Part shown: positions 3,475 through 37,941 of the stretch, one piece after another
Position numbering within the stretch: the stretch's first letter is position 1
How the letters are laid out: the number at the start of each line of letters is the position of its first letter
NCBI GenBank assembly: GCA_001767435.1
Contig: MEKT01000027.1
Span: forward strand, 58,869 to 98,163
DNA: 39,295 nt
Direction of reading: 5' to 3'
From: Acidobacteria bacterium RIFCSPLOWO2_02_FULL_65_29
Lineage (GTDB): Bacteria; Acidobacteriota; Vicinamibacteria; Vicinamibacterales; CAVVIG01
Program-made: the position numbers and the translations under genes
The notes under the pieces: model-generated
The model's database searches: none
What the model saw: the letters and a program-made list of their open reading frames with translations, nothing else
What the model was told of the DNA's origin: nothing

Positions 3475-4935
3475 ATGACGAAGACGAAGACACTCCTCGC
3501 TTCCATCGTGGCGGTCGCGATCGGCGGCTGCGCGCGCCCGACTCCGGAACGCCAGATCGTCGACGACGCGGCCGCGGCGCTCGGCGGCGCCGACCGGATA
3601 GCCGCCGTCCGAACGCTGGTCATCGAAGGGTCCGGCACCAACGGCAACCTCGGGCAGGACATGACGCCAGACGCCACGGGGCAGACCTTTGCGGTGAGCA
3701 ACTACCGGCGCGCGATCGACGTCGCCGGCGCGCGAGTGCGCATCGAGCAGACGCGCACGCCCAACTTCACCTACTTCCAGGGACCGCAGCCGCAGAAACA
3801 GGTGCTCGGCATCGATGGGGACGTTGGCTACAACGTGGCGGCCAACGGGAACGCCACGCGCGTCCCGAACGCAGCCGCCAGGGATCGGCGCGCGGAGGTC
3901 TTCCATCACCCGCTGACGATCGTTCGCGCGGCCCTCGACCCGGCCGCCACGCTGTCGAATCCGCGCACCGCCGGCAGCGAGAGCGTCGTCGATGTCACGA
4001 CGAGCGGAGGCCTCGGCTTCACGCTGGCGATCGACAATGGCACCAAGCTGCCGACGCGCGTCGTGTCGATGACCGACAACGTCAACCTGGGCGACGTCGC
4101 CATCGAGACGAGCTTCGCCGACTACCAGGACGTGAGCGGCCTCAAGCTCCCGGCGCGTTTCACGACGAACACCGACAAGACCACGACAGCGACGCTGCAG
4201 GTCTCGAAACAAGCCGTCGACGCCGACGCGGGCGATCTGGCCGCGCCCGAGGCGGCGCGATCGGCCACGCCCATCACGGGACCGGCGCCCGCCAACGTCA
4301 CGGCCGAAGTCGTGGCGAAGGGCGTCTGGTGGCTCGCGGGACAGTCGCACCACAGCGTGCTCGTGGAGTTCAGCGATCACCTGACGCTCATCGAGGCGCC
4401 GCAGAACGACACGCGCGCGCTCGCGGTCATTGCGAAAGCGCGGGAGCTCGTACCGGGCAAGCCGCTCACCCACGTCGTGAACACCCATCATCATTTCGAT
4501 CATTCCGGCGGCATTCGCGCCGCCGTCTCGGAAGGGCTGGCGGTCATCACGCAGAAAGCCAGCGCCGCGTTCTACCAGGACGCCGTCGCGCGGGCGCACA
4601 CGATCGCACCGGACGCGCTCGCCAAGAACCCCAAGCCGCTGAAACTCGAGACGGTGGACGAGGAATTGGACCTCAAGGACGCGAGCATGACGGTCACTCT
4701 GTACCGCATTGCGGGAAGCGGGCACGGCGACACCATCCTGATGGCGTACTTCCCGCGGGAACGGCTGCTCGTCGAAGCGGACGTGTACACGCCGGGCGGC
4801 GCGATCGCGCCGTACGCGGAGAATTTTCTCGAGAACATCAAGAAGCGCAACCTCCGTGTGGACAAGATCGTGCCCATCCACGGCGCGATCGGACCGTTTG
4901 CCGATCTGGTCAAGGCGGCGCAGGGAACAAAATAG
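3475..4935 (+). CDS. Metallo-beta-lactamase-fold lipoprotein (486 aa)
   Basis: The N-terminus is a lipoprotein signal with lipobox I-G-G-C (Cys19). About residues 25-260 form a non-catalytic domain that looks like a periplasmic lipoprotein-type beta fold. The MBL domain follows, with the zinc motif T-H-H-H-F-D-H (H338 to H343), a third histidine in G-S-G-H-G-D-T, the bridging Asp in E-A-D-V-Y and the last histidine in P-I-H-G. All the usual ligands are present, so it should be an active hydrolase on the periplasmic side of a membrane; the substrate cannot be told. Start ATG 3475 follows a -10 box by 8 nt. The stop is followed one base later by a five-heptad repeat. The next gene may be co-transcribed. 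Confidence 0.85.
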   Translation: MTKTKTLLASIVAVAIGGCARPTPERQIVDDAAAALGGADRIAAVRTLVIEGSGTNGNLGQDMTPDATGQTFAVSNYRRAIDVAGARVRIEQTRTPNFTYFQGPQPQKQVLGIDGDVGYNVAANGNATRVPNAAARDRRAEVFHHPLTIVRAALDPAATLSNPRTAGSESVVDVTTSGGLGFTLAIDNGTKLPTRVVSMTDNVNLGDVAIETSFADYQDVSGLKLPARFTTNTDKTTTATLQVSKQAVDADAGDLAAPEAARSATPITGPAPANVTAEVVAKGVWWLAGQSHHSVLVEFSDHLTLIEAPQNDTRALAVIAKARELVPGKPLTHVVNTHHHFDHSGGIRAAVSEGLAVITQKASAAFYQDAVARAHTIAPDALAKNPKPLKLETVDEELDLKDASMTVTLYRIAGSGHGDTILMAYFPRERLLVEADVYTPGGAIAPYAENFLENIKKRNLRVDKIVPIHGAIGPFADLVKAAQGTK

Positions 4936-4936
4936 A

Positions 4937-5022
4937 AGTCAGAAGTTAGAAGTTAGAAGTTAGAAGGACTGAGATGCTGAAAGCTGAGAGCTGAAGGCTG
5001 ACAGCTGCTTGAAAGCTGAGAA
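4937..5022 (+). repeat. Heptanucleotide tandem repeats after a stop codon
   Basis: Starting one base after the TAG at 4933-4935 there are exactly five heptads (4937-4971): AGTCAGA, then AGTTAGA three times, then AGGACTG. A second block of heptads follows at 4977-5022: CTGAAAG, CTGAGAG, CTGAAGG, CTGACAG, then CTG-CTTGAAAG and CTGAGAA. The first block has the same design as 10879-10913. Confidence 0.9.
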
Positions 5023-10915: not shown

Positions 10916-11950
10916 ATCAGGACACTCGCTGCGCTCCTCGTTGTCTCCCTGAGTGCCGCCGCGTGCAGCCGAGCTCCGCGCGACTCTGGGCCTGCGGCGC
11001 TTGTCGAGCGCGCTCGCGTCTCGATGGGATCGGAGCTGCGCCTGACGGCGTGGACCGCGGACGAGCCGCTCGCGGTCTCGGCGTTCGACGAGGCCTTCTT
11101 CGAGTTCGACCGGCTCGACGACCTGCTCACGGTGTGGCGCGACGACAGCGACGTGCAGCGGCTGAACGCGGCCGCAGGCGAGGGTCCCGTTCAGGTCGGA
11201 CCAGAGGTCCGCGAGATCCTCCGCCTTGCGCGCGAGGCGAGCGAGCTGACCGGCGGCCGGTTCGACGTCACGTTCGGCGCGCTCGCGGACGTGTGGAGGT
11301 TCGATCACGATCAAAGCGACCGCGTTCCGCCTCGCGACGAGATCGATGCGCGGCTGCCGCTCGTCGATTACCGCAAGGTGCACGTTGACGACCGCGCTGG
11401 CACGGCCTACATCGCCCGCAAGGGCATGCGCGTGCACCTCGGCGGCATCGGCAAAGGCTATGCGGTCGACAGGGCGGCAGCCGTTCTTCGGCGACGGGGC
11501 ATCAGCGACTTCCTGATTCAGGCGGGCGGCGATCTCTACGCGAGCGGACGCCATGGCAACCGGCCCTGGCGCCTGGGCATTCGCGATCCCCGCGGACCGG
11601 CCGACAAGAGCTTCGCGGCCATCGATCTGTCCAACGGCACCTTCAGCACCTCCGGCGACTACGAACGGTTCTTCTTCGCGGGCGGCCGCCGCTACCACCA
11701 CATCCTCGACCCCGCCACGGGCGAACCGGCGCGCGGATGCCGGAGTGTCACGCTCGTGACCGATCGAGCGGTCTTCGCCGACGCGCTCGCCAAGGGCGCC
11801 TTCATCCTCGGCCCGGTCGAAGGCATGGCTCTCATCGAGCGCCTGCCGAATGTCGAAGGCGTGATTGTCTCGAGCACCAACGAGGTGTTGGTCTCGTCCG
11901 GTCTGAAGGATCGCCTGACGATGCTCACGCCTCCGACAAACGCACCGTAG
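10916..11950 (+). CDS. apbE: ApbE-family FAD:protein FMN transferase, lipoprotein
   Basis: ApbE transfers FMN from FAD to a Thr or Ser of exported flavoproteins. Family features: V-S-M-G-S-E-L-R-L-T opening, L-N-A-A-A-G, L-T-G-G-R-F-D-V-T, H-L-G-G-I-G-K-G-Y-A-V-D-R-A, G-D-L-Y-A-S-G, F-S-T-S-G-D-Y-E-R, H-H-I-L-D-P-A-T-G and D-A-L-A-K-G-A-F. The conserved frame clearly extends upstream of ATG 11024: 36 codons from ATC 10916 encode a lipoprotein signal with lipobox A-A-A-C (Cys17). No ATG, GTG or TTG exists upstream in frame, and AGAAGGA ends 5 nt before the ATC. I therefore propose a rare ATC start; the fallback is ATG 11024 (308 aa, no signal). The gene converges with the FMN-binding protein at 12016-12549, its likely substrate. 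Confidence 0.88.
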   Translation: MRTLAALLVVSLSAAACSRAPRDSGPAALVERARVSMGSELRLTAWTADEPLAVSAFDEAFFEFDRLDDLLTVWRDDSDVQRLNAAAGEGPVQVGPEVREILRLAREASELTGGRFDVTFGALADVWRFDHDQSDRVPPRDEIDARLPLVDYRKVHVDDRAGTAYIARKGMRVHLGGIGKGYAVDRAAAVLRRRGISDFLIQAGGDLYASGRHGNRPWRLGIRDPRGPADKSFAAIDLSNGTFSTSGDYERFFFAGGRRYHHILDPATGEPARGCRSVTLVTDRAVFADALAKGAFILGPVEGMALIERLPNVEGVIVSSTNEVLVSSGLKDRLTMLTPPTNAP

Positions 11951-12024
11951 TCGTTAGTCGTCAGTCGTCAGTCGTTAGTCGAGACACGGCCTGGCTAACG
12001 ACTATCGACTAGCGACTATCGACT
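11949..12024. repeat. Inverted pair of heptad arrays between convergent genes (large hairpin)
   Basis: Left arm 11949-11983: AGTCGTT, AGTCGTC twice, AGTCGTT, AGTCGAG, starting on the AG of the ApbE stop codon. Right arm, read on the minus strand from 12024: AGTCGAT, AGTCGCT, AGTCGAT, AGTCGTT. Positions 11949-11977 and 11996-12024 pair at 24 of 29 bases around an 18-nt loop. The minus-strand stop TAG (12018-12016) lies inside the right arm. It could terminate or insulate both transcripts. Confidence 0.88.
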
Positions 12025-12549
12025 CGCAGGTGGCGTCAGGAGCTGCCTGGCCACCCGTCTCGCGCTATCCCGCACGGCGCGTGCCGAGCTCGACACCGTC
12101 ATCGTCGCGCGCGAGACGGCGTCCACGTCGCTTCCGACCCTGAACTGATCGCGGATGCTCTTGCCCTTGAATTGCACCGGGAACTCCGGCGTGTCGACCG
12201 AAAAGTACCCGTACGGCTCGTGGTGATCCACGACGACGACGCCGGTCAGGACGCCGGCGGTGTCCATGCCAACCAGAATCTTGATGGGACCGTCGTATCC
12301 CCGCTCGAGGGGCGTGAGCTCCGTCGTCCAGAACGCGTAACCGGCGAGCGCGGGAGAACCGGTGGCGGGGTCGTTGACGAAGGCCTTGTAGTGGGGCGGC
12401 TCCCCGCTCTTTGGCGAGAAGCTCGAGGCCGACGGAAACAGCTGTCGGAGCTGCGCGTCCTGTCGGCGGTCGATCGGCAACTGGCCACCCGCCACGACGG
12501 TCGCGGCGGCGACGAGAATCCAGGTCAACCTGACGCGGGTCACCCGCAT
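12016..12549 (-). CDS. FMN-binding domain protein, probable ApbE substrate (177 aa)
   Basis: Exported small protein: signal segment about residues 9-22, then an FMN-binding domain of the RnfG/NqrC/NosR type (about 65-170). Key parts are G-Y-A-F-W-T-T-E, G-Y-D-G-P-I-K-I-L-V-G-M, G-V-V-V-V-D-H-H-E and the attachment motif D143-A-V-S-R-A-T149, which fits D-x-x-(S/T)-x-A-T where Thr149 would carry phosphoester-linked FMN. The usual Gly after Ser is Arg here. It probably shuttles electrons in the periplasm. The neighbouring convergent ApbE makes the pairing convincing. The last codons (S-R-stop) are encoded by heptad repeat DNA. ATG 12549 lies 22 bp from the divergent esterase start. Confidence 0.85.
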   Translation of the reverse strand: MRVTRVRLTWILVAAATVVAGGQLPIDRRQDAQLRQLFPSASSFSPKSGEPPHYKAFVNDPATGSPALAGYAFWTTELTPLERGYDGPIKILVGMDTAGVLTGVVVVDHHEPYGYFSVDTPEFPVQFKGKSIRDQFRVGSDVDAVSRATMTVSSSARAVRDSARRVARQLLTPPASR

Positions 12550-15673: not shown

Positions 15674-16102
15674 GTGAGATTGGTTTCCTTGCTGGCGGCC
15701 GCGACGCTTCTCGCCGCGGCGTGCCAGTCGCCGCGACCGCCCGAACCCGCCACGCCCCCTCCCGTGCGCATCGTCGGATGGAAGCCGCTGGCGTCGTGGA
15801 CGGGCCGCGGCAACGTGCAGACCGAGACGTTCCTGAGCGATACGGGGTCGTTTCGGATTCGGTGGGAGACGAAGAATGAGTCGCGCCCTGGCGCCGGCAC
15901 GCTCGAGGTCGCGTTCCGCAGCGGCGACAGCGGGCGCGTCATCATCGACGCCGTCGATCAGAAAGGCGTCGGGAGCGGTTTGTCAGAAGTCGGCGACATG
16001 GTGCGCTGGTACTACCTGTCGATCGACTCGGCGAACGTCGACTGGTCGGTGACGGTCGAAGAACCGATCATGGGGCGGACGGTTGTCAGGACGGATCCGT
16101 AG
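15674..16102 (+). CDS. Small lipoprotein (142 aa)
   Basis: GTG 15674 opens a lipoprotein signal with lipobox A-A-A-C (Cys17), then a Pro-rich linker. The remaining 110 residues are beta-rich (F-R-I-R-W-E-T, L-E-V-A-F-R-S, G-R-V-I-I-D-A, W-Y-Y-L-S-I-D-S-A-N-V-D-W-S-V-T-V-E-E). This recalls a jelly-roll or lipid/ligand-binding sandwich, but I cannot assign a family. The stop codon TAG is immediately continued by five AGTCGTT-type heptads. The gene converges with the DUF4920 gene. Confidence 0.72.
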   Translation: MRLVSLLAAATLLAAACQSPRPPEPATPPPVRIVGWKPLASWTGRGNVQTETFLSDTGSFRIRWETKNESRPGAGTLEVAFRSGDSGRVIIDAVDQKGVGSGLSEVGDMVRWYYLSIDSANVDWSVTVEEPIMGRTVVRTDP

Positions 16103-16135
16103 TCGTTAGTCGTTAGTCGTTAGTCGTTAGTCGCC
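16101..16135 (+). repeat. Five heptanucleotide repeats starting within a stop codon
   Basis: AGTCGTT four times then AGTCGCC, exactly 35 nt; the first AG belongs to the TAG stop at 16100-16102. Same unit as the left arm at 11949. It fills the gap between two convergent genes; unlike 11949-12024 there is no inverted partner. Confidence 0.9.
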
Positions 16136-19302: not shown

Positions 19303-19396
19303 AATTTGAGGATTTGAGGATTTGAGGATTTGAGGATTTGAGGAGTTGAGGAGTTGAGGATGAGGATTTGAGGAGTTGAGGAGTTGAGGAGTTGAG
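19303..19396 (+). repeat. Octanucleotide tandem repeat (GATTTGAG/GAGTTGAG)
   Basis: About eleven imperfect 8-nt units following the sugar dehydrogenase stop: first GATTTGAG units, then GAGTTGAG units, one interruption, then more of both. The period is 8 rather than 7, but the place, directly after a stop codon, is the same as for the heptads. Confidence 0.9.
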
Positions 19397-23275: not shown

Positions 23276-23292
23276 GTGGGGCTCCGCCCCAC
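23276..23292 (+). terminator. Perfect GC hairpin just after the cyclase gene
   Basis: GTGGGGC, loop TCC, GCCCCAC, beginning one base after the TAA. There is no T-run. It is a 7-bp perfect stem and a likely transcription end or RNA-stabilising structure. Confidence 0.5.
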
Positions 23293-23313
23293 ACCCCGGC
23301 TCGGTCGCTCGCG

Positions 23314-23430
23314 CCCTTCGACTGGCTCAGGGCGCCTCGAGCATCGCCGAGGGGCGGGGACCCCTACGCCCCGCGCCGCTCCCTCGCCCTTCGACAATGC
23401 TCAGGGCGTCCCGAGCATCGTCGAGGGACG
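23314..23430. repeat. Two REP-like palindromic elements
   Basis: Copy A at 23314-23357 and copy B at 23387-23430 share C-C-C-T-T-C-G-A-C, CTCAGGGCG and GAGCATCG-CGAGGG blocks. In copy B, CCCTTCGACAATGCTC pairs with CGAGCATCGTCGAGGG around a short loop with few mismatches. They lie between the cyclase and glcD genes. Confidence 0.75.
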
Positions 23431-37846: not shown

Positions 37847-37941
37847 GAGATTTCAGAGTTTGGAGTTCAGCGTTCAGACCACGAAATTCAATTTGAGATC
37901 CACGTCTGAACGCTGAAATCTGAAATCTGACATTTCAGGTC
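37847..37941. repeat. Heptad repeats with hairpin after the sulfite/nitrite reductase gene
   Basis: Following the stop of the minus-strand reductase gene are heptads of the TTCAGAT/TTCAGCG type (about five units), then a partly inverted second block. TTCAGCGTTCAGAC (37866-37879) and GTCTGAACGCTGAA (37904-37917) are exact inverted copies with a 24-nt loop; GATTTCAG/CTGAAATC extend the pairing. Confidence 0.85.

Follow-up and report, generated by a model that had tools for sequence, protein, structure and literature searches.

The stop codons of two convergent genes, apbE and a gene for an FMN_bind-domain protein, lie in two opposed arrays of 7-bp repeats that can pair with each other. This raises the questions of what kind of structure this is, whether it serves as a terminator for both genes and how it arose. 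The locus is part of a stretch of 39,295 nucleotides from Acidobacteria bacterium RIFCSPLOWO2_02_FULL_65_29, which was analysed as a whole and is called the window here. The FMN_bind protein is, judging from its family, likely to be a flavinylation substrate.

Features of the apbE/FMN_bind junction. Positions refer to the window.
Feature	Position	Strand	Evidence and details
apbE (FAD:protein FMN transferase family)	11024-11950	+	Pfam ApbE, E = 5.8e-84
Array 1, (TAGTCGT)4.9	11948-11981	+	TRF; AGTCG core constant; linker dinucleotides TT, TC, TC, TT
16-nt loop separating the two pairing arms	11979-11994		Inverted-repeat search, fold
Array 2, inverted AGTCG array	11995-12024	-	TRF; linkers AT, CT, AT
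FMN_bind-domain protein gene, convergent with apbE	12016-12549	-	Pfam FMN_bind, E = 1.8e-11

The stop codons of both convergent genes are made of array letters. The TAG of apbE (11948-11950) opens array 1, and the stop codon of the FMN_bind gene (12016-12018, minus strand) is located inside array 2, to which the last two codons of this gene also belong (AGT CGA, Ser-Arg; 12019-12024). The inverted arms (11949-11978 and 11995-12024) are 30 nucleotides long each and form 25 Watson-Crick pairs and one G-T pair. The AGTCG cores pair in the stem, and the mismatches fall at the variable dinucleotide linkers. RNA folding of 11949-12024 yielded a strong hairpin on both strands, with -42.5 kcal/mol (z -7.0) for the plus strand and -40.5 kcal/mol (z -6.3) for the minus strand; none of 200 shuffled versions was as stable as the real sequence. 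The preliminary description had reported two opposed heptad arrays that form a hairpin between apbE and the convergent gene, pair at 24 of 29 positions, start in the apbE stop and contain the stop of the convergent gene. The TRF arrays, the inverted arms, the fold and the sequence itself bear this out in all points. An equally good inverted repeat was found in two of 1,500 random 110-nt pieces of the genome and at 12 of 141 convergent gene pairs; arrays were present in 11 of these 12.

This locus is not special. Tandem arrays with a short period of 7 or 8 bp recur throughout the genome, and the apbE/FMN_bind junction belongs to this class. Across the 5.5 Mb of the genome, AGTCGNNAGTCGNNAGTCG is found 290 times. 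The following statistics refer to a sample of approximately 1.25 Mb (23% of the genome) that was taken region by region, with genes called by a simple hexamer model; part of it was taken from contigs because they were known to carry AGTCG arrays, and the counts for that word may be inflated as a result. Between genes, 150 arrays of period 7 and 107 of period 8 were counted, compared with 0-2 at periods 4, 5, 6 and 10. There is a strong intergenic bias (150 intergenic versus 25 genic arrays at period 7), and 175 of the 1,014 intergenic regions carry an array of period 7 or 8. Arrays are found at 33% of the convergent, 21-31% of the co-directional and 10% of the divergent gene pairs. At least 56 different array words are present in the sampled part of the genome, among them TTAGTCG, TTGACAG, TTAGAAG, AATTAAG, TTTGAGGA and ACACGAAG. 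The load of any given word varies greatly among related genomes.

Further repeats were observed in the window. A perfect (TAGTCGT)4.9 array that has no second array facing it (16100-16133) begins at the end of an ORF (15674-16102). An octamer array (ATTTGAGG, then GAGTTGAGG variants; 19304-19396) follows a stop codon between two co-directional genes, and its word recurs in facing pairs at other loci of the genome (L095, L100). At 4933-5007 a TTAGAAG array is followed by a GCTGAAA array, two words in one short intergenic region, and a CTGAAAT/TCAGATT facing pair is located between two co-directional minus-strand genes (37852-37930). A distinct dispersed repeat around CTCGACAGGCTCGGGATGCCCTGAGC occurs in several intergenic regions (window 23287-23427; L064:5416-5707, L066:19053-19609, L081:902-1034); a motif resembling it is also present within a 74-bp tandem repeat of the window.

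The arrays begin flush with gene edges. The stop codon is abutted or overlapped in 81 of the 156 arrays at 3′ edges, and 5′ edges are used too. In the 1.25-Mb sample the purine-rich strand points outward from the gene, which holds for 3′ ends (Fisher, 1.8e-7) as well as for 5′ ends (1.1e-4). The proposal that the array is 3′-end material for each gene is too narrow, since 5′ ends are likewise bordered by arrays, with the same polarity away from the gene. Given this fixed polarity from gene edges, two arrays of the same word that share a region always face each other. The sample contained 52 convergent same-word pairs and no divergent one, counted for six words. When the whole genome was searched for AGTCG pairs, convergent ones were found at many loci, for gaps of 8-38 as well as 39-69, and no divergent pair was found at gaps of 8-69. 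The polarity was not significant in genomes G039 and G011, where arrays were few and the samples small.

Could the structure be a selected bidirectional transcription terminator common to the two convergent genes? The hairpin is stable on both strands, arrays occur most often at convergent gene pairs and seldom at divergent ones, and the genome encodes Rho. Folding at z < -4 was found for 40% of the convergent regions with arrays and for 0 of 16 without them, so that both transcripts would end in a stem if they reach that far. A search for a U-tract directly after the stem gave no match at the locus (flanks CGCAGGTGG and ACGGTGCG), and there is no terminator match; the hairpin is therefore not a canonical intrinsic terminator. 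U-rich ends are about equally rare with arrays (10%) and without (5%), and compensatory covariation between the arms was not found. Moreover, of 14 facing AGTCG pairs that were inspected, 10 are flanked by co-directional genes, so bidirectional termination cannot be the general role; some facing pairs are even located directly before start codons. With regard to the two-way terminator suggested earlier, the stable hairpin resembles a Rho-independent terminator in its position right after the stop codon. It differs from one in a stem that is broken about every 7 bp, in the absent U-tract and in the occurrence of the same structures between co-directional and divergent genes. We consider selection for bidirectional termination unlikely.

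To analyse how the two arms are related, each array was compared with its own region and with pieces of matched length from other regions that carry arrays, and a rank of at most 0.05 was counted as exceptional. An exceptional inverted partner in the array's own region was found in 55 of 147 cases, with 7.4 expected, and the enrichment was repeated in G039 (8 of 24 cases, 1.2 expected). Unit order common to both arms was detected in none of 37 cases at 0.05, a test of low power, and swapping arms between loci did not reduce complementarity (p = 0.57). Shuffling the units within the arms of 14 AGTCG loci revealed a slight excess of matches (301 versus 290.8, p = 0.001), which in our judgement is attributable to degenerate end units. 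The likeness of AGTCG linkers was 0.43 within an arm, 0.18 between arms and 0.31 for re-paired arms (p 0.0004-0.002, with one locus, L244 and L280, counted twice). A retest of this between-arm avoidance on other words was not significant; for this reason, and because of the doubly counted locus, we keep the anti-matching of AGTCG linkers as unexplained. Selection against perfect long palindromes is a possible cause. In the facing AGTCG pairs (window, L243-L255, L271-L284) the arms tend to differ in linker, often TT versus AT.

Since linkers are alike only within an arm, unit order is not shared and arms can be swapped, the arms appear to have grown separately. The preliminary description had viewed the pair as two independent array additions. 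This is correct insofar as the arrays meet head to head and are not unit-for-unit copies, but the arms share word and orientation beyond chance. The second arm might instead have been made from the first by fold-back template switching (quasipalindrome copying), which would account for the common word and for the stretches that, at some loci, match perfectly over as many as 19 bp. The unit-order, swap and linker results give no good sign of such copying or of compensatory change selected for pairing, and the AGTCG linkers differ between arms beyond chance; fold-back copying is accordingly a highly improbable origin.

The reading that we prefer, with a probability of roughly 0.5, is an inverted seed at the gene junction, followed by separate slippage growth of the facing arms, with the hairpin as a probable by-product. 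A short inverted seed at the junction would provide the two sides with one word, after which the arms would lengthen separately by 7-bp replication slippage. As soon as two copies of one word face each other, a hairpin would arise automatically. For many arrays an inverted partner could not be detected, which shows that the hairpin is not required. At the apbE/FMN_bind locus it would place a stem of about 29 bp at the end of both mRNAs, which may slow down 3′ exonucleases or pause the polymerase for Rho; a 3′ cap or pause site at this locus is thus a possible function. The recurrence of words at many unrelated loci and the 52:0 polarity are not explained by slippage alone.

The arrays might also be simple sequence without any function, generated by slippage and tolerated only at sites where they disrupt neither a coding nor a promoter signal. 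The intergenic bias, the depletion at divergent regions, the turnover of words among related genomes and the separate growth of the arms are all consistent with this. The fixed polarity, however, demands more than local slippage, same-word pairing is non-random, and the same words are found at dozens of unrelated loci, so that we regard absence of function as a rather doubtful explanation. A different and very unlikely explanation is a word-independent process that marks gene boundaries by extending or recognising arrays of 7-8 bp units in the outward direction from the edges of genes. If this were the case, the 3′ direction of the array strand would lead away from the gene, which is the polarity of fused telomere ends, and the facing hairpin would be the scar where two tailed edges met. 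Boundary marking would then work with dozens of words per genome and would be common to Acidobacteria, Xanthomonas and cyanobacteria. A search for a telomerase-like tailing enzyme revealed a group II intron maturase as the sole reverse transcriptase, and thus no tailing enzyme is in sight.

Dispersed, inverted and intergenic arrays are also reminiscent of a palindromic mobile element of the REP/BIME or MITE type that has inserted between genes. REP/BIME palindromes carry a GTAG or CGTC end tag and are paired with RAYT Y1 transposases (PMC3733652). They share with the arrays the dispersed intergenic hairpins near 3′ ends and a similar distribution along gene edges, but they lack tandem units. 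The Y1 transposase (PF01797) was sought in the whole genome, which is 97% complete, and was not found, which excludes REP elements on that criterion. As to the end tag, a consistent GTAG or CGTC was not seen; GTAG is present at the start of array 1, through the overlap with the TAG stop codon, and is not constant among arrays. The exact fit to gene edges on both sides also speaks against an insertion, and taken together a mobile element is the least probable of the explanations considered. A conserved loop sequence shared between regions was considered and rejected, as the short matches that are left after masking the arrays appear to be mostly further ACAGT and GAATT array units. The Rfam search gave no match at the gathering score (best match 23 bits, gathering score 97).

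The same locus was compared in relatives. The closest relatives of apbE are found in Acidobacteria MAGs (62% identity). In relatives, apbE and the FMN_bind gene are convergent too, but they are about 1 kb apart, with a gene for a Fer4_5 membrane iron-sulfur protein between them that is missing from the window junction, and an orthologous hairpin was not found. Downstream of apbE, a different palindrome is present in G016 and different short repeats in G010. A second FMN_bind gene (50% identical) adjoins a gene for a Fer4_5 membrane protein on contig C177 (G000 C177:2436-4060; L078, L056, L287). The absence of the Fer4_5 gene here, the paralogous pair on C177 and the other structures after apbE in G016 and G010 suggest that the window junction may be a simplified or rearranged version that is now occupied by arrays.

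Heptad repeats have been described in other bacteria. The TAACTGA repeats of marine Beggiatoaceae (MacGregor 2015, PMC4679880) are likewise intergenic direct repeats that abut genes; the likeness is confined to period and location, since they consist of a single word located mostly upstream of start codons and show essentially no inverted pairs, unlike the arrays analysed here. Closer are the GGGAATC and GGGGA(C/T)T heptads of Xanthomonas and Nostoc (Rehm et al. 2015, PMC4692102). The Xanthomonas repeats are 89-93% intergenic, lie near the 5′-neighbour ORF irrespective of its direction and overlap stop codons; they form 70-75 convergent inverted pairs per genome, are rare between divergent genes and are mostly conserved in position between species, and no role was found for them (PMC4692102). 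The arrays described here share the 7-bp tandem units, the intergenic bias, the polarity relative to the 5′ neighbour and the always convergent inverted pairs, as well as the overlap with stop codons and the avoidance of divergent regions. The Rehm-type words are G-rich and quadruplex-forming, whereas AGTCGTT, TTTGAGGA and most words found here are without G-tracts (no GGG), and the sampled part of this single genome combines at least 56 words and has 8-bp units as well. Since the architecture is shared and the G-tracts are not, we assign the arrays to the broad Rehm-type kind rather than to the narrow family of quadruplex-forming GGGNATC repeats. The rule of location and polarity holds for many unrelated words without G-tracts, and quadruplex formation can therefore not be its general cause. 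This raises the question of what makes arrays of 7-8 bp units extend away from genes and face each other, as they do without exception among the counted pairs. Location and facing architecture were already known for one Xanthomonas word; the many unrelated, non-quadruplex words that follow them here are the new part.
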